This document shows, piece by piece, positions 42,588 through 55,097 of a stretch of 64,000 bases of DNA. The position numbers were made by a program, and so were the translations under genes. Each line of letters begins with the position of its first letter. Position 1 is the first letter of the stretch. The notes under the pieces were generated by a model, which saw only the letters and a program-made list of their open reading frames with translations, did not search any database and had not been told where the DNA came from. The stretch spans positions 34,310-98,309 of the forward strand of contig JADFXU010000005.1 in assembly GCA_015233365.1 (NCBI GenBank), written 5' to 3'. Source of the DNA: Nitrospirota bacterium. GTDB lineage: Bacteria > Nitrospirota > Thermodesulfovibrionia > Thermodesulfovibrionales > Dissulfurispiraceae.

Positions 42588-42842
42588 ATGACGACGGCTG
42601 CAGTGAAAATTACAAAAAAAGGCCAGGTCACCATTCCAAAGGAGATTCGCAGCCGTCTCAGGACCAATACTGTCTACTTTGAAGTCATAAATGATACTGT
42701 TGTTGTAAAAGCAGTAAGGGATGCTGCCGGGACTCTCAGCGAATATGCGAAGAATGCAAAGCCGGGCGTTTCCATGAAACAGATGAAAGAACGGGCATGG
42801 GAGGAAGCTGCACGTGAAAAAGTCGGTAAAAAGTCTTCCTGA
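42588..42842 (+). CDS. AbrB/SpoVT-type antitoxin
   Basis: VKITKKGQVTIPKEIRSRL. Confidence 0.9.
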   Translation: MTTAAVKITKKGQVTIPKEIRSRLRTNTVYFEVINDTVVVKAVRDAAGTLSEYAKNAKPGVSMKQMKERAWEEAAREKVGKKSS

Positions 42843-43236
42843 TACCAATGCTATCGTCAGGTATCTTGTCAGAGATGACATTGCACTCTACGAAAGAGCA
42901 AGAGACTACTTCGATAAGGTTAAAAACGGCACTACAAAGACAATAATCCTTGAGAGTGTCGTTGCTGAGTGTATCTATGTGCTGACAAAAATATACAAAG
43001 TACCGCGAAATAAGGCTGCCGGGGGTCTTATCGATATTCTGCATTATAAAGGGGTCGCCAACGATGACAGAACGGATCTCATTGGTGCTCTTGCCATCTT
43101 TGCGGAACAGGACATTGACATTGTCGATTGTATTTTATCTGTAAAGTCAGACAGCTTTGATGCTCATCTTTTCTCATTCGATCAGGAGCTCAATAAAATT
43201 CATAGCGGCAGAAAACCTAAGGTCTCTGATCGGTAA
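42814..43236 (+). CDS. PIN-domain toxin (VapC family), GTG start overlapping antitoxin
   Basis: LPDTNAIVRYLVRDD; DIDIVDCILSVKSDSFDAHLFSFDQELNK acidic residues. Confidence 0.88.
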   Translation: MKKSVKSLPDTNAIVRYLVRDDIALYERARDYFDKVKNGTTKTIILESVVAECIYVLTKIYKVPRNKAAGGLIDILHYKGVANDDRTDLIGALAIFAEQDIDIVDCILSVKSDSFDAHLFSFDQELNKIHSGRKPKVSDR

Positions 43237-46644: not shown

Positions 46645-47760
46645 ATGGGCCAAAAATATTATGGTTCTGCGCTTATTGTCGATGACGACCCGCAAGTGCT
46701 GGAGTCGGCGTCTTTGCTCCTCAACGAGTTCGGCTATTCCACTATAACCTGCGGAAATTCGCTGGAGGCTGTCAGCCGGTTCCAGGAGGTCGCGGTTGAT
46801 GTCGTTCTGACGGACATTATGATGCCCGGCCTGTCGGGAATCAACCTTCTCGAAGAAATACGCGCCGTTGATCCTGAAATGCCGGTTATCCTGATGACCG
46901 GTTATGCCGACCTGGACAAGGCCATAGAGGCGATAAAAAAGGGCGCGTTCGATTTCATCATAAAACCTTACAAGCCTGAGCAACTCACCAATTCAATCGA
47001 AAGGGCGGCAAAGTACAGCCGGCTCATCCGGATGGAGAAAGACTACAAGTATATACTCGAGGACCTGAACGAGACCCTCGAGACCCTCGTGGCTGAGAGG
47101 ACCATGGGCCTGATGGCCCTGACCCTTGCGGACAGGGTAAGAAATCCGGCCACGGTCATAAGCTGGACCTGCAAACGATTGCTGGAAAAAGAAGAGGTTT
47201 CGGGGCATCTGAAACAAAGTCTGAGGGAGATCATCGGTGAGACCGAGAAGCTCGAAAGCATTGTCCAGGACTTTCAGGGACTCCTGAAAAACAGGCAGTC
47301 CATGTACTGTTATGAAGACATCAACACTATTCTCTCGACCGTGCTGTCGGTTATCGATAAAGAGACCAGCCATAAGGGCGTTACGCTGGAGGCGAAGCTT
47401 GCCGGAGAGCCGCTGAAGATCAACATGCATAAGAACCTGGTACGTGTGGCGATTTTCCACGTGATGAGGAACGCCGTCGAGGCGATGCCTGAAGGCGGGA
47501 AGATCAGCATTAGAACGGGGAGAGAAAACGATTATGTGGCGCTTACCATATCGGACAACGGAAAAGGCATATCCCCGGACGACCTGGAAAAGATCTTCGA
47601 TCCCTTCTTCAGCACCAAAGAGCACAGGTTCGGAATGGGACTCCCCCTGGTGAAACAGATCATATCAGAACATGCGGGAGAGATAACCGTAAAGAGTGAA
47701 GAGGGGAAAGGCACTGAGGTCAGAATGGTCTTTCCGAGCCGGTGGAGCGAGGGCAAATAG
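46645..47760 (+). CDS. REC-histidine-kinase-like protein lacking the H-box histidine
   Basis: REC VDDDPQVLESA, LTDIMMPG, MTGYAD, KPYKPEQL; DHp-like LTLADRVRNPATVISW; HATPase RNAVEAM, DNGKGIS, FDPFFSTKEHRFGMGLPLVK. Confidence 0.9.
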   Translation: MGQKYYGSALIVDDDPQVLESASLLLNEFGYSTITCGNSLEAVSRFQEVAVDVVLTDIMMPGLSGINLLEEIRAVDPEMPVILMTGYADLDKAIEAIKKGAFDFIIKPYKPEQLTNSIERAAKYSRLIRMEKDYKYILEDLNETLETLVAERTMGLMALTLADRVRNPATVISWTCKRLLEKEEVSGHLKQSLREIIGETEKLESIVQDFQGLLKNRQSMYCYEDINTILSTVLSVIDKETSHKGVTLEAKLAGEPLKINMHKNLVRVAIFHVMRNAVEAMPEGGKISIRTGRENDYVALTISDNGKGISPDDLEKIFDPFFSTKEHRFGMGLPLVKQIISEHAGEITVKSEEGKGTEVRMVFPSRWSEGK

Positions 47761-47822: not shown

Positions 47823-48485
47823 GTGAAAGAAATTATTGCCGCTTATAACGAAGCCATATTTGATGCCAACCGCGACAGGGCGCTGAAGATAATCCGTGAA
47901 GCAGTGGACAACGGCGTTGCCCCCGAGGATATCGTATTCAAGGTTGTTGTTCCTGCGCTGGAAGTCATGATGAAAGGGGTCAGCGAGACCCGGAACGTCA
48001 GCCTTGCCCAGCATTTTTTGGCCGCGCAGATAGCGGCTGAAGTGACGGAAGACATGGTCGCCAGATTCAGAAAGGCCCCCGCGGTTGCCGGGAGTGTCGT
48101 TATAGGGACGTCCCAGGGCGACTTTCACGGGCTCGGCAAAAAAATCATCAGCGGATGCCTTAAGGCCCTGATGATTGAGGTCATCGACTTGGGGCTCAAT
48201 GTTCCACCGGAACGGTTTGTTGACGAAGCGGTTGCACACGGAGCGCAGGTCATTGCCATATCCTCCATGATGGTCCATACCGCGCTGGGTGAGAACGGCT
48301 GTCTCAAGGTACGGCAAATACTGAAACAAAGGGGGCTTGAGGATAAAATCAAGGTCATAGTAGGCGGCGCCCCATACCGCCATGACCCGAACCTGTACAA
48401 AGTCGTGCGCGCCGACGCATGGGCCGAGGATGCCATCACCGCGGGCAAGGTAATAGCTGGCCTTATAAAAGGGGTGAGGAAATGA
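47823..48485 (+). CDS. Corrinoid (B12-binding) methyltransferase-type protein A
   Basis: GTSQGDFHGLGKKI (DXHXXG), SSMMVHT, VIVGGAPY; N-terminal helical cap. Confidence 0.92.
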   Translation: MKEIIAAYNEAIFDANRDRALKIIREAVDNGVAPEDIVFKVVVPALEVMMKGVSETRNVSLAQHFLAAQIAAEVTEDMVARFRKAPAVAGSVVIGTSQGDFHGLGKKIISGCLKALMIEVIDLGLNVPPERFVDEAVAHGAQVIAISSMMVHTALGENGCLKVRQILKQRGLEDKIKVIVGGAPYRHDPNLYKVVRADAWAEDAITAGKVIAGLIKGVRK

Positions 48486-49525
48486 TCAGCGGAATGGACA
48501 GGCTTGTTGCTGCCGCAAAGGGGGAGACTTCCGACCGCGTGCCGGTCTTCTGCAACCTTATAGACCAGGGCGCAAAAGAGCTTGGTATGACTATAGAGGA
48601 GTATTATTCAAACGGAGAGTATGTTGCCGAGGCGCAGCTCAGGATGCGTGAGAAATACGGGTATGACAATCTCTGGGGGCTCTTCTATGTCGGAAAAGAG
48701 GCCGAACTCATGGGATGTGGAAAAATCATTTTCGCCACGGACGGGCCGCCAAATGTAGGACAGATGATCCTAAAGAGCTATGACGATATAGACCGGCTCG
48801 TTGTACCGCAAGACATCTCTTCACACCCCGCTTTTCAGGAACCGTTGAAGTGTCTGAACATCCTAAAGAAAGAAGCCGGGGGAAAGTACCCTGTATGTGC
48901 ATATGTCACCGCATCTATGACCTTGCCCGCCATACTTATGGGCATGGAGAAATGGATGGAGCTTCTTCTCACAGGACCTGCGGCTGTGCGCGATGAGCTT
49001 CTGGAGAAGTGCTCTGACTTTTTCAAAAAAGAGATAACCGCGTATCGAAACGCCGGGGCCGATGTTATTATCTATGCTAACGCCTTTGGCTCGACCGACT
49101 TTGTACCGATGAGAATGTTCCAGGAACTGTCCCTGCCGTGGATGGAACGCGACCTGAAGCCGGTCGGGACCGATGGGGTAGTGTATTACTGCGGGGGGGC
49201 GCGAATGAACGCCGTACTCGGCCAGGTCATCGAAAGGCTGGGGTTAGGGACTTATTACCTCAGTCCCTTTGACGACATTGCCGAGGGCAAGAAAATAATC
49301 GGCGGGCGCGGGCTGACCTGCGGGGTTATTAACGACATCAGGCTCATTGACTGGTCAAAAGAGGAGATCAGGAGCGAGGTCAAAAGGATGATGGACGCGG
49401 GCAAACCCGGGAGAAAATTCCTTTTCGGAACTCTCGTCATGCCTTACGTTATTCCCGAGGAAAACATCCGTGCGATGCTTGAGGCCGCTTATGAATTCGG
49501 TGGCCTCGGGGGCGATGATAAGTGA
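48482..49525 (+). CDS. Uroporphyrinogen-decarboxylase-family (MtaA-like) methyltransferase A
   Basis: MDRLVAAAKGETSDRVPVF; GTDGVVYYCGGARMNAV; start/stop overlap with corrinoid gene. Confidence 0.88.
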   Translation: MISGMDRLVAAAKGETSDRVPVFCNLIDQGAKELGMTIEEYYSNGEYVAEAQLRMREKYGYDNLWGLFYVGKEAELMGCGKIIFATDGPPNVGQMILKSYDDIDRLVVPQDISSHPAFQEPLKCLNILKKEAGGKYPVCAYVTASMTLPAILMGMEKWMELLLTGPAAVRDELLEKCSDFFKKEITAYRNAGADVIIYANAFGSTDFVPMRMFQELSLPWMERDLKPVGTDGVVYYCGGARMNAVLGQVIERLGLGTYYLSPFDDIAEGKKIIGGRGLTCGVINDIRLIDWSKEEIRSEVKRMMDAGKPGRKFLFGTLVMPYVIPEENIRAMLEAAYEFGGLGGDDK

Positions 49526-50328
49526 TGAAGGGAAACCCCGAAAAACCGGAAAAGACCGGCACGGTTAAAGATGGAACGGAAGACCTGGAGGAACGGGTCT
49601 CAAGACTGGCCAGGGACAAGTCATGCTTGCAGCTTATAAACCGCATGATGGAAAAATTGAGCGCGGTCCCCGGTCTGGCAAATACGATGGAGAGCATGCT
49701 CACGGTCGTCCTGGACTGCATAGGCGGCACCAATGTAGCCGTCTATTATCTGATAGACGACACTGTTTACTATGCCGATGTTTACGGCAAAAAAATGAAG
49801 ATCGCCTCAATCGACGACCAAGAGGTGAAGAAAGTCTTCGACAGCCGCGAGCCCCTGGAAATAGAACATGATTTCAGCGACACCAAAATGATGACCCCCG
49901 AATTCACGAAGGCATTCACCTGGGTGTTCCCACTTCTTGTCGGGACGGAAATCGTAGGAGTATTCAAGATCGAGGACATGCATATGGGGATGAGGGAACT
50001 GCGTCCCTATCTGCCCACCTTTTTCAATTATGTGGCCCTTATCCTGAGAAACGAGATACTGGGGCAAACCAGGTTAAAGAAGGCCTTCTGCCAGTTGAAC
50101 GAGACGAACGTCGCTCTGTCCAACGAGATAATCGAGCGCAAGCGGGCGGAGGAGGCGCTGCGTAAGAGCAACGAGGAACTGGAGAGGAAAAACGCGGAAC
50201 TCGAAACGATGAACAAGGTGTTTGTGGGCAGGGAGATCAGGATGGTGGAATTGAAAGAGAGGATAAAGGAGCTGGAATTCAGAATTCAGAAGCAGGAAGA
50301 CGAAAATAAAAACGCACCGGGAAATTAG
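49522..50328 (+). CDS. GAF-domain protein with C-terminal FVGREIRMVELKERIKELE coiled coil
   Basis: GAF-like VLDCIGGTNVAVYYLIDDTVYY...VFPLLVGTEIVGVFKIED; no kinase domain. Confidence 0.8.
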   Translation: MMKGNPEKPEKTGTVKDGTEDLEERVSRLARDKSCLQLINRMMEKLSAVPGLANTMESMLTVVLDCIGGTNVAVYYLIDDTVYYADVYGKKMKIASIDDQEVKKVFDSREPLEIEHDFSDTKMMTPEFTKAFTWVFPLLVGTEIVGVFKIEDMHMGMRELRPYLPTFFNYVALILRNEILGQTRLKKAFCQLNETNVALSNEIIERKRAEEALRKSNEELERKNAELETMNKVFVGREIRMVELKERIKELEFRIQKQEDENKNAPGN

Positions 50329-50497: not shown

Positions 50498-52156
50498 ATG
50501 AAAATAAAAGCCAAATTCACACTAATCGTCTCGACCTTTGTTATTATTTTGCTCGCACTAATTGCGTTTATCGCCTTTTCACACTACAAAAAATCCATTA
50601 AAGAAACTATCGCTCAGCAGCAATTCCTCATGGTCTCCATACTAGCAGATGAAATAGACAGTAAACTTTTGACCGCTCAACAGCATCTTATTGAGGTTGC
50701 AAAAGCTGCTCCGCCGGACATAATGCAAAATCCTGGAAAGGCACAGGCATTTCTTGACAACAAGCCGAGTTTGCATGTAATGTTTGAGAGTCATCTTTTT
50801 TTATTTACGCCGGCAGGCAAAGTATTAGTTGAATCACCATATACTCCAGGCATGAGGGGATTTAACCTTTCTTTCCGCGAGTACATTATAAATACCCTTA
50901 AAACAAAACAACCGTATATCTCCGATCCGTTTGTGTCCTCGATGCCGCATAAACATCCTGTCATAACGTTCACAGTGCCGCTTTTTGACCGCAAAGGCAA
51001 AATAACAGGCATATTAACCGGCAGCATAGACCTTATGAGTGATAACTTCCTGGGGAGAATAAGCACTGTAAAAATAGGGAAGACAGGTTATTTTTACCTG
51101 ACTACCACGGACAGGACTTTAATTATGCATCCCGACAAGAAAAGGATCCTGACAAAAATGGCTTCCGGCCTAAACAGGCTTTATGATAGGGGTATAGAGG
51201 GATTCGAGGGCACCGACGAAACCATAACGTCTTACGGGACAAAAATGGTTGCTTCTTTTAAGCGGCTGAAAGTAAAAAACTGGATACTGATTGCAAACTG
51301 TCCGCAAGCTGAAGCATATCGTCCCATCCATGAGGCGGAACAGTATTTTTTAATGGCCACTATTACAGTAATCATTGCGGTATTTTTTATTATTTCCTTC
51401 ATCATAAAATATTTAACAAAACCTCTTGAACTTTTCACCCGTCACGTTGAGGACCTTCCACAAAAAACAGGGGACGACAGATTCCTGAATATAAAGACAA
51501 AAGATGAGATCGGGACGCTTTCCCTGGCTTTTAATAAGATGGTGACCGAGATTGACAAGAGGTCGGAACTGGAACGGAGTGTAAGTCGCCAGAAGGAACT
51601 AATCCTCACTGCAGCAGGCGAGGGCATTTGCGGGATGGATTCAGAAGGAAAAATAATATTTGCCAATCCGGCGGCGGCGGAAATGTGCGGCTATCAGGTT
51701 GAGGAGCTGGTCGGTTCGCACATGCACCATCTGCTCCATTATGCCAGGCCTGACGGCTCTCCTTATCCGCAGGAAGAATGCCCTCATTTCAGTACCCTTC
51801 GGCAAGGGACGTCATGTCAGATGAGAGATGAGGTTTTTTGGAGGAAAGATGGCACAAGCTTCCCTATCGCCTATACGAGCACCCCGATACGGGAAAGAGA
51901 TACGATAACAGGAGCGGTTGTCACCTTCCGCGACATCACTGACCGCAGGAAGGCCGAAGATGATATCCGTAAACTCAACGAGGAGCTTGAGCAGCGGGTC
52001 AATGAACGGACAGCCGAAATGGAGAGGAAAAACGCGGAACTCGAAACGGTGAACAAGGTGTTTGTGGGCAGGGAGCTGAGAATGGTGGAATTGAAGGAGA
52101 GGATAAAGGAGTTGGAATTCAGAATTCAGAATTCAGAATCAGGAAGACAAAAATAA
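50498..52156 (+). CDS. dCache-HAMP-PAS sensor protein with C-terminal FVGRELRMVELKERIKELE coiled coil
   Basis: TM-Cache (GFNLSFREYIINTLKTKQPYISDPF...VITFTVPLFD); [35 protein letters not shown]; no kinase domain. Confidence 0.87.
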   Translation: MKIKAKFTLIVSTFVIILLALIAFIAFSHYKKSIKETIAQQQFLMVSILADEIDSKLLTAQQHLIEVAKAAPPDIMQNPGKAQAFLDNKPSLHVMFESHLFLFTPAGKVLVESPYTPGMRGFNLSFREYIINTLKTKQPYISDPFVSSMPHKHPVITFTVPLFDRKGKITGILTGSIDLMSDNFLGRISTVKIGKTGYFYLTTTDRTLIMHPDKKRILTKMASGLNRLYDRGIEGFEGTDETITSYGTKMVASFKRLKVKNWILIANCPQAEAYRPIHEAEQYFLMATITVIIAVFFIISFIIKYLTKPLELFTRHVEDLPQKTGDDRFLNIKTKDEIGTLSLAFNKMVTEIDKRSELERSVSRQKELILTAAGEGICGMDSEGKIIFANPAAAEMCGYQVEELVGSHMHHLLHYARPDGSPYPQEECPHFSTLRQGTSCQMRDEVFWRKDGTSFPIAYTSTPIRERDTITGAVVTFRDITDRRKAEDDIRKLNEELEQRVNERTAEMERKNAELETVNKVFVGRELRMVELKERIKELEFRIQNSESGRQK

Positions 52157-52204
52157 AAGGATACTGGTGAATTAGCATGAAAAGATATGCAACTACAGTC
52201 GCAG
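52021..52204 (+). repeat. Direct repeat copy 2 (3' end of Cache-PAS gene + start of PhnD-like gene)
   Basis: See 50181..50357; 7 nt longer owing to an additional gaattca unit. Confidence 0.88.
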
Positions 52205-53088
52205 CACTGGTTTTATTATTGATAATCTCAGGCTGCAAGCAGGGGCAGCAAAGCACAGGTCCGAGGTACGGCGTATCGCCGTCGTCTCAAAATGTGCCGG
52301 TCTATCACTTTGCCGTGCATCCGCTCCACAATCCGGCCAAACTCATACAGGCGTACCAACCTCTTGTAGATTATCTGAACAAACATATCAATGGGGCACG
52401 TTTCACGCTGGAGGCTTCCAGAGACTATGCCAATTTTGAGGTAAAATACCAAAGTGGCAAGCCTGAATTTCTCCTGCCGAACCCCTGGCAGACCCTCCAG
52501 GCCATGAAGACCGGTTACCGCGTTATCGCCATTGCAGGAGAGCCGGAGGACTTCAAGGGCATATTTTTAGTACGCAGGGACAGCGGCATCAGGAAGCCCT
52601 CGGACCTGAAAGGCAAGGCGGTAAGTTATCCGTCTCCTACTGCGCTTGCGGCCTGCATCATGCCCCAATATTTTCTCCACGTACATGGTATCAACGTCAA
52701 CAGGGACATCGAAAACCGGTATGTCGGCTCACAGGAGTCTTCTATAATGAACGTCCATTTGAAAAATACAGCTGCCGGAGCAACCTGGCCACCGCCGTGG
52801 AGGGCCTTTCAAAAGGACCATCCACAGGAGGCTGCGGAATTGAAGGTTTTGTGGGAAACTGAGCCGCTTATAAACAATTCTGTCATGATACGCAGTGATC
52901 TCCCGGCTGACATACGGGAGCAGGTTCGAAAATACCTGGTCGGTCTGCATGAGACAGAGGAAGGCAGGGCGATACTCGCCGGCATGGAGACCGCCCGTTT
53001 TATTCCGGCGTCGGACAAGGACTACGATGTGGTGCGCTCTTACGTTGAGCGGTTCGAGAGGGAAGTGCGGAAGGTGGAGACTAAATGA
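52177..53088 (+). CDS. PhnD-like phosphate/phosphonate-type periplasmic binding lipoprotein
   Basis: Lipobox LIISGC; FAVHPLHNPAKLIQAYQPLVDYLNKH; DLKGKAVSYPSPTALAA; no ABC permease/ATPase nearby. Confidence 0.88.
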   Translation: MKRYATTVAALVLLLIISGCKQGQQSTGPRYGVSPSSQNVPVYHFAVHPLHNPAKLIQAYQPLVDYLNKHINGARFTLEASRDYANFEVKYQSGKPEFLLPNPWQTLQAMKTGYRVIAIAGEPEDFKGIFLVRRDSGIRKPSDLKGKAVSYPSPTALAACIMPQYFLHVHGINVNRDIENRYVGSQESSIMNVHLKNTAAGATWPPPWRAFQKDHPQEAAELKVLWETEPLINNSVMIRSDLPADIREQVRKYLVGLHETEEGRAILAGMETARFIPASDKDYDVVRSYVERFEREVRKVETK

Positions 53089-55097
53089 AGCTTCGTGATA
53101 TTCATAACTTTCTGTCCGGCACGTTACGCGGCCGACTGATCCTCGGTGTGGCCGTCGTACATGCGGTCATGATGACGCTTTTCATAACAGATTTGACATT
53201 GCGGCAGCGTTCGATGCTCCTTGACCGTCAGGAGGAGGCGGCGACAGCACTCTCACAGTCTCTTTCGACCTCGGCAGCGGGATGGCTTGCGGCTGACGAC
53301 ATCTCCGGCCTTCAGGAACTGGTTGAGAACCAGCGTCACTATCCGGAGCTCCTCTTCGCCATGCTCATCGATAAGGGGGGGCGTGTGCTGGCCCATACCG
53401 ACAAATCCCGGCAGGGGCTTTACCTGCTCGACCTTCCCAAGGAGGCCCGCCAGACAGTCGTTAGCAAAACGCCGGATTTGGTGGACGTCGCGGTCCCTGC
53501 CATACTCGGTGGCCGCCATGTAGGGTGGGCGCGTGTCGGCATAGGGCAGAAGACGGCTGGACAGAAGCTCCGCCAGATCACCCGCAGTGGCGCCCTCTAT
53601 GCGATTGCGGCAATCATTCTCGGCACGGTCATCGCTTCGCTGATTGGACGTCATCTGACCCGGCGGCTCTATGCCGTTCAGGACACGATCAACAAAGTGC
53701 GTGCTGGAAACCATCGCGCCCGGTCGTCTATCACGGGAAACGACGAGGCGGCCCTGTTGGCGCGAGAGTTTAATGACATGCTTGATGCTCTGTCGGAGCA
53801 CGAGGCTGAATTGAATTCGAGCGAGGCCCGTTTCACCAAACTATTTAACACAGCTGCTGTGCCCCTCTGTTTCGTCAATAAGGAAGGTGTACTGGTTGAT
53901 TTCAATGATCGTTTTGCGCAGACCTTCGGCTACACTCACGAGGAAGTCCCAACACTGAAGGAGTGGTGGAATTTGGCCTATCCGGACCCCGCCTATCGAA
54001 TACGGGTAGTTGCCACATGGGAAGCCGCTGTGCGGCGTGCCTCGGAGGAAAAGACCGATATCGAACCCATTGAGTACCGGGTAACCTGCAAGAGTGGCGA
54101 GGTGCGTACTATGGTGATCTCAGGCACTACTATTGACGAAGATTTTCTTGCCATCTTCTTCGACATCACCGAGCGAAAGAAGGCGGAAGAAGAAATACGC
54201 ATGCTTACTGAAGAGCTTGAAAAGAGAGTAACTGCAAGAACAGCCGAACTAATTAAAAAAAGCCAGGAACTGGAAGGCAGCCAGAAGGCGCTCATAAACA
54301 TCGTGGATGATCTGAATCAGAAGACCTGGGAACTGGAACAGGCCAATATCAAACTGAAAGAACTCGACCGTTTGAAATCCATGTTCATATCATCAATGAG
54401 CCACGAATTGAGGACCCCGCTGAACTCCATAATCGGGTTCTCAAGCATTCTCCTCCATGAATGGCTCGGACCTGTAAACGATGAGCAAAAGAAGAACCTT
54501 GCCACTGTCCTGAGGTCGGGCGAGCATTTGCTCAGCCTGATAAACGACGTAATAGACGTATCGAAAATCGAGGCAGGAAAAGTTGAGGCATTTGCGGATG
54601 AGTTTGACATAAGTGATGTGATCTCGGAAGCCGTGGATTTGCTGGCCAAAAATGCTGAAGACAAGGGGCTTGAGCTGAAAATTGAGGCTATCCATCAGAT
54701 TATGCGCACGGACAGACGCAGACTCCTGCAGTGCGTGATCAACCTGTTAAGCAATGCAGTGAAATTTACGGTCAAGGGAGGCGTGCGCGTCTCTGCGCGA
54801 CTAATCAGTAGTAATCTAAATCCTGAACTCAGAAGCCGGATCTCGGAACTCGACGGAGATTTTATGGAAATTTCCGTTACCGACACCGGCGTCGGCATAA
54901 AAGCAGAAGATATGTCGAAACTTTTCCAGCCGTTTATGCGCCTCGAATCTACTGTCGGGGCAGCGGCAAGCGGCACCGGGCTCGGGCTTTATCTTACAAA
55001 TAAGCTGGTTGCGGAAATCCTGAAAGGTGATATAATTTGCAGTAGCAGATACGGGGAAGGAAGCTCTTTTACCATGAGGCTGCCTGTGAAGATATGA
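53085..55097 (+). CDS. TM-HAMP-PAS-HisKA-HATPase sensor histidine kinase
   Basis: HAMP; PAS NTAAVPLCFVNKEGVLVDFNDRFAQTFGY; FISSMSHELRTPLNSIIGFSSIL; GTGLGLYLTNKL. Confidence 0.92.
   Translation: MKLRDIHNFLSGTLRGRLILGVAVVHAVMMTLFITDLTLRQRSMLLDRQEEAATALSQSLSTSAAGWLAADDISGLQELVENQRHYPELLFAMLIDKGGRVLAHTDKSRQGLYLLDLPKEARQTVVSKTPDLVDVAVPAILGGRHVGWARVGIGQKTAGQKLRQITRSGALYAIAAIILGTVIASLIGRHLTRRLYAVQDTINKVRAGNHRARSSITGNDEAALLAREFNDMLDALSEHEAELNSSEARFTKLFNTAAVPLCFVNKEGVLVDFNDRFAQTFGYTHEEVPTLKEWWNLAYPDPAYRIRVVATWEAAVRRASEEKTDIEPIEYRVTCKSGEVRTMVISGTTIDEDFLAIFFDITERKKAEEEIRMLTEELEKRVTARTAELIKKSQELEGSQKALINIVDDLNQKTWELEQANIKLKELDRLKSMFISSMSHELRTPLNSIIGFSSILLHEWLGPVNDEQKKNLATVLRSGEHLLSLINDVIDVSKIEAGKVEAFADEFDISDVISEAVDLLAKNAEDKGLELKIEAIHQIMRTDRRRLLQCVINLLSNAVKFTVKGGVRVSARLISSNLNPELRSRISELDGDFMEISVTDTGVGIKAEDMSKLFQPFMRLESTVGAAASGTGLGLYLTNKLVAEILKGDIICSSRYGEGSSFTMRLPVKI

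Follow-up and report, generated by a model that had tools for sequence, protein, structure and literature searches.

An aspartate in place of the phosphoacceptor histidine: a histidine-kinase-like family of Nitrospirota and Desulfobacterota with the residues of a possible signal-gated phosphatase

What does a protein built like a histidine kinase do when the histidine that should carry the phosphoryl group is an aspartate? The question is raised by an open reading frame at 46645-47760 of a 64,000-nucleotide stretch of a Nitrospirota genome (the window), which encodes a receiver (REC) domain followed by the DHp and CA domains of a histidine kinase. From its sequence, the gene looks like a kinase that evolution has remade into something else. 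Its features are:

46645-47760, + strand: REC-DHp-CA protein resembling a Rec-controlled histidine kinase, with Asp in the H-box (371 aa; Pfam)
46672-46998, + strand: receiver (REC) domain, residues 10-118 (Pfam PF00072, 4e-30)
46975-47190, + strand: helix of residues 111-182, made of REC α5, the signaling helix and DHp α1 (AlphaFold2 model)
47131-47133, + strand: GAC codon 163, which encodes Asp163 where the phosphoacceptor His is expected (sequence; Asp in all Nitrospirota members)
47134-47136, + strand: Arg164 at position +1, where the acid required for HisKA autokinase activity is gone (alignment; PMC3510030)
47143-47145, + strand: Asn167 at position +4, retained (alignment; function according to PMC3510030)
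47440-47739, + strand: HATPase_c (CA) domain, residues 266-365 (Pfam PF02518, 2e-25)

An earlier note on this DNA had reported the replacement of the H-box His by Asp, and both the reading frame and the GAC codon were found again exactly where it had placed them. Asp163 aligns gap-free with the His of xAHEIRNPL kinases. The same note held that the REC aspartate and the N, G1, F and G2 boxes are kept, and this is correct: the receiver has its acid pair (D13/D14), phosphoacceptor D57 and K107, and the CA domain has N-box Asn276, G1 residues Asp304, Gly306 and Gly308, an F box and the glycines of a GMGLP G2 motif. Beyond what was noted then, the acid at +1 is also gone. The H-box runs Asp163, Arg164 (usually Glu or Asp), then Val-Arg-Asn-Pro, with Asn167 at +4. 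Among the elements of HisKA catalysis, the phosphoacceptor His and the +1 acid are absent and the HATPase_c domain with all four boxes is present. The HisKA match itself (residues 156-210) is sub-threshold in Pfam, at 21.9 bits against a cut-off of 26.9. In the AlphaFold2 model (pLDDT 84.6), one helix spanning residues 111-182 joins REC α5 to DHp α1; domain packing in this model is uncertain because its pTM is 0.49. All 21 REC-type members measured have exactly 56 residues between the REC Lys (Lys107 here) and the Asp (Asp163 here).

The residue change is shared by a whole family. When 396 Nitrospirota genomes were searched with a profile, 62 proved to hold members, and Asp occupies the acceptor position in 83/83 distinct members, which shows that the Nitrospirota homologues consistently lack His and rules out a local mutation or sequencing error. 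Position +1 is Arg or Lys in 78 of these 83 and never acidic; Arg166, Asn167 and Pro168 are essentially invariant, and N276, D304, G306 and G308 are unchanged across all 82 aligned members. Family members with a standard REC domain have the D57-type motif. Among 100 Asp entries (98 genes, two of them entered twice, with distinct counts made by hand), +1 is acidic in none and mostly Lys, Arg or Gly, compared to an acid in 115 of 119 canonical comparison kinases, and +4 is Asn in 99. Other kinases in the 80 loci all have His, except one with Asn. The source genome holds three members: the 46645-47760 gene, a second REC-type gene whose protein is 83% identical (C60), and a membrane-type gene at about 53% (C61). 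Further Nitrospirota members in the genome collection (L001, L002 and L012) all have Asp. With a wider profile, 286 Nitrospirota genomes gave 56 matches, of which the weakest scored 281 bits, with none from there down to the cut-off; there is therefore a clean gap between the family and ordinary kinases, and no hidden Nitrospirota His member at that level. Searches at E <= 1e-54 found no member in genomes of Acidobacteriota (149), Pseudomonadota (200), Nitrospinota (77), Planctomycetota (149) or Bacillota (200), an empty search being weak evidence; these phylum names are those of the loci that served as search centers.

Compared with C60, the 46645-47760 gene has an overall dN/dS of 0.19 and is under purifying selection. 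A different conserved His in the DHp domain, which could have rescued a conventional kinase reading, was looked for and rejected: at positions -15 to +60 around the Asp, His never occurs in more than 6 of the 100 Asp entries. The conserved His272 (beside the N box) and His343 (within the EHxG sequence that follows the G2 box) both lie in the CA domain, outside DHp. Judged from sequence and model, the reading frame qualifies as a pseudo-histidine kinase, with a DHp-CA fold and a non-His acceptor position fixed in its lineage, and its autokinase activity is predicted to be absent given the lost His and +1 acid. The earlier note had offered either a pseudo-kinase or a kinase with a non-canonical acceptor. 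The first is well supported, because the His-to-Asp change is fixed in the family, the +1 acid is gone and DHp has no alternative His; the second is disfavored.

Members from Desulfobacterota, where 25/297 genomes matched, illustrate how such a change might arise. Three of the loci that matched, L258-L260, cluster with ordinary kinases in the tree. Of the 31 members of the family in this phylum, 5 have His+Glu, 11 combine His with a +1 residue that is not acidic (Gly, Lys, Gln or Ala), and 15 have Asp followed by Gly, Lys or Arg; Asp combined with an acidic +1 occurs nowhere in the family. A tree for which the two trait columns were removed places the Nitrospirota members to one side of a branch with SH-aLRT 89, and in it the His+Gly proteins sit within the Asp+Gly proteins, as if His had returned without the +1 acid. 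The minimum on this tree is 3 D/H and 2 acid/non-acid changes, and the codons at the acceptor position, GAC/GAT for Asp and CAC/CAT for His, are one base apart. From these sequences, the suggested order is that the +1 acid was lost first and His later, with some members reverting to His. We grade this order as suggested because at least 3 D/H changes are needed on the tree, yet one clade of all Asp members is also compatible with the data (p-AU 0.215). His+Gly and Asp+Gly members of the same type occur together in only three Desulfobacterota genomes (G646, L213/L231; G454, L239/L215; G667, L238/L237), where both paralogues are of the membrane type. His/Asp heterodimer pairs were rejected as a rule for this phylum: the four His+Glu/Asp+Lys-or-Arg pairs fall in different subfamilies, one a membrane-sensor clade and the other a clade mostly in RsbT/SpoIIE-like operons.

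The inputs vary widely across the family and include REC, degenerate REC, several kinds of membrane sensor, a Tll0287-like periplasmic domain, an RsbT-like domain and others. The membrane sensor (N-termini of L083, L002 and L012; L254:5159-5614 and similar) has several TM helices and an HG.PE.LY.HQ.AH..F-like motif, and gave no Pfam or NCBIfam match in the members scanned. It is fused to the kinase in Nitrospirota; in Desulfobacterota it is split between two overlapping genes. Five Desulfobacterota members examined (L245, L246, L248, L249 and L253) lie behind RsbT-like and weakly SpoIIE-like genes, sharing operons with them, and by eye the N-terminus of the Asp-type members there resembles an RsbT-like domain. 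Between the 46645-47760 gene and C60 (L082/L170, G000:C60), DNA identity is mostly 80-95% over about 46,905-47,744, which runs from the last part of REC to the end of the CA domain; it drops to about 55% over the beginning of REC and to background level outside the gene. This pattern suggests different inputs with one shared output, and gene conversion or a module swap likely lies behind the similar output halves of these two paralogues.

Gene neighbors vary as well. At one Nitrospirota locus the start of the Asp gene overlaps a canonical kinase gene that has no REC. Four other loci have a 4-bp overlap between the Asp gene and a kinase gene upstream of it; in the one of these four that was scanned, the upstream kinase carries its own REC. 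SPFH and VTT/DedA-like neighbors often accompany the membrane type. Genes that by eye encode SPFH (stomatin-like) and VTT/DedA-like proteins adjoin those of the family at L002 and L170 and at roughly 13-15 more Nitrospirota loci, with fabH/plsX near. Conserved neighbors were considered as a pointer to the target and set aside, membrane-type neighborhoods holding no response regulator. No consistent response-regulator gene was seen beside family genes in the neighborhoods read.

In the window, the Asp gene is followed by two B12-related genes:

47823-48485, + strand: corrinoid (B12-binding) protein, a neighbor and not a family-conserved partner
48419-49525, + strand: MtaA/CmuA-like methyltransferase with a URO-D fold, a neighbor

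The gap to the corrinoid protein gene is 62 bp. The B12 association is local, because no other examined member has B12 neighbors: none was found among those members whose neighbors were read, and the neighbors of C60 differ from those here. B12 regulation is thereby ruled out as a general role of the family among the members examined. Rfam found no cobalamin riboswitch within the 64-kb window. Further along, the proteins encoded at 49522-50328 (no Pfam domain) and 50498-52156 (dCache-HAMP-PAS) have no kinase domain and share a near-identical C-terminal coiled tail, NKVFVGRExRMVELKERIKELEFRIQ. At 52177-55097, a gene for a PhnD-like substrate-binding protein overlaps that of a canonical sCache-HAMP-PAS histidine kinase, and at 42588-43236 an overlapping AbrB-like/PIN-domain-like pair, identified by eye, is a possible toxin-antitoxin system.

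The combination of lost and retained residues resembles mutants of the kinase CrdS. According to PMC3510030, CrdS E372A, E372D, E372G and E372Q are kinase dead with full phosphatase activity, H371A retains most of its phosphatase activity (CrdA~P half-life 2.6 min, versus 53.5 alone and 0.7 with wild type), and N375A loses it, Asn at +4 being needed for the phosphatase reaction only; results for the acidic and Thr/Asn residues of HK853, HK1190 and HK4262 were similar. Nucleotide and the CA domain stimulate the phosphatase activity of HK853 and EnvZ (PMC7005713). Measured against the CrdS data, the family keeps what the phosphatase requires, including the Asn or Thr at +4 of the H-box (here Asn167), and has dropped what the kinase requires. 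Its His+Gly and His+Gln members match CrdS E372G and E372Q.

Our best explanation, to which we give close to an even chance, is that the 46645-47760 protein is a Rec-controlled histidine kinase module that has lost its autokinase and acts mainly as a signal-gated phosphatase of one or more response regulators. It is based on Asp in place of His, loss of the +1 acid, retention of the +4 Asn and of a full nucleotide site, and the fixed length of the REC-DHp helix. In such a protein, an upstream kinase would phosphorylate Asp57 of the REC domain, which would alter the coiled-coil signaling helix and shift the nucleotide-bound CA domain relative to DHp, and this shift may toggle Asn167-assisted dephosphorylation of the partner response regulator on or off. 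In other members this output module would be coupled to membrane, periplasmic or RsbT-like inputs instead. Somewhat more tentatively, we propose that the family represents "phosphatase-only histidine kinases" of two phyla, in which the kinase half has been dismantled and a sensor-gated phosphatase serves many inputs as a stand-alone eraser of response-regulator phosphorylation. The occurrence of Asp in 15/31 Desulfobacterota members, the conserved nucleotide site, the dN/dS of 0.19 and a fold match to LvrB also favor a phosphatase. Against it stand the lack of a consistent response-regulator gene beside the family genes read, and the possibility that the Arg-Asn-Pro block persists just for a helix kink or for response-regulator docking. 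The carboxylate of the Asp might also influence the reaction directly, and none of the CrdS mutants considered here (PMC3510030) is H-to-D. Retained docking features are no proof of a phosphatase, because DivL, a pseudo-kinase, is inactive both as a kinase and as a phosphatase (PMC4211667).

The strongest alternative is a non-enzymatic adaptor of the DivL or NifL kind, gated by nucleotide, which would control a bound response regulator, kinase or transcription activator by complex formation. We regard this analogy as a serious possibility, though as the less probable reading. DivL (with DivK~P/CckA) and NifL (with NifA) are precedents, and the strictly conserved ATP site would suit a protein governed, as NifL is, by ADP binding. 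Most members lack an adjacent partner response regulator, and one module sits on many different inputs, as an adaptor might. However, an adaptor gives no special reason why Asn at +4 should persist in 99/100 entries when the +1 acid is always lost, and DivL has lost tight ATP binding, unlike this family as judged by sequence.

RetS dimerizes with the canonical kinase GacS and modulates GacS, and by analogy the Asp protein could be a heterodimer partner of an ordinary kinase. The intact DHp domain would allow this, as would the overlaps of Asp genes with a REC-less canonical kinase gene (one Nitrospirota locus) and with upstream kinase genes (four more, by 4 bp) and the three Desulfobacterota genomes with both His+Gly and Asp+Gly paralogues. 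The paralogue pairs are non-adjacent in the genomes having both, however, and the overlapping genes are more simply a kinase plus its REC-bearing target; we consider this reading unlikely. We think it quite improbable that Asp163 (forming an acyl phosphate) or some other residue receives a phosphoryl group from the CA domain and relays it. The ATP site is complete, Asp can be phosphorylated, as REC domains show, and one-base D/H switches (GAC/CAC) occur inside the family. This reading is nonetheless disfavored because the +1 acid required for HisKA autokinase activity is missing in every Asp member; in addition, the Gly at -8, the pivot position (G153) required for autophosphorylation of LvrB (PMC13269768), is mostly Ser or Asn here, and DHp has no other conserved His. 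Decay of the gene or a sequencing error would account for an unusual residue and nothing further, and has next to no probability given the family-wide fixation, dN/dS of 0.19, intact frames and conserved ATP site.

Histidine kinases that lack the His, including those with Asp, are said to make up about 1% of all histidine kinases (PMC5361649), and few have been studied so far. A literature search, with subscription papers outside its coverage, found no description of this Asp family; the family and its residue signature seem to be undescribed, within an already known class of pseudo-histidine kinases. Natural intermediates (His+Glu, His+Gly/Gln/Lys, Asp+Gly and Asp+Lys/Arg) exist within one protein family, so the conversion of a kinase into a pseudokinase, and the reasons for it, can be tested directly. 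The residue pattern predicts a kinase-minus, phosphatase-plus state and could help to find other His-less histidine kinases that act as signal erasers and not as relics. If the phosphatase-only reading is true, these bacteria possess stand-alone erasers of response-regulator phosphorylation.

Among known proteins, some members of plant ethylene receptor subfamily II have a degenerate H-box with Asp or Glu replacing His. These are membrane receptors with other fused domains, and we claim no close relation. In a fold search, the closest solved full-length structure is LvrB of Leptospira (8vc9), which takes the top six matches. LvrB, the prototype Rec-controlled histidine kinase, has the same REC-DHp-CA order and a continuous REC α5/signal helix/DHp α1, but the two proteins are only 21-23% identical and the His and +1 acid are gone in ours. 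LvrB autophosphorylates on H161 and the phosphoryl group then goes to LvrC (PMC13269768). REC-triggered autophosphorylation of this type is ruled out for the 46645-47760 protein, because there is no His at the site, and the architecture alone is common to both. DivL of Caulobacter (4q20, a match in both fold and sequence) likewise has a histidine kinase fold with a lineage-conserved replacement of the acceptor His, but DivL has Tyr, a multi-PAS input and weak ATP binding (PMC4211667), whereas the present family has Asp, a conserved nucleotide site and REC or other inputs. The features of the DivL family (Tyr, a multi-PAS N-terminus and an alphaproteobacterial reader of DivK) are not those of this Asp family of Nitrospirota and Desulfobacterota. 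NifL is also histidine-kinase-like, with a GHKL nucleotide domain, and signals without phosphotransfer through nucleotide-dependent, ADP-controlled complex formation; in the form described it keeps the H-region His (PMC9866876), unlike our protein, and it has a PAS/flavin input and a known target, NifA. The sequences nearest to the catalytic core are AtoS and ZraS. CrdS and these bifunctional HisKA kinases (AtoS/ZraS/NtrB-like) have both His and an acid at +1; the family has lost both residues and holds in common with CrdS the Asn at +4.
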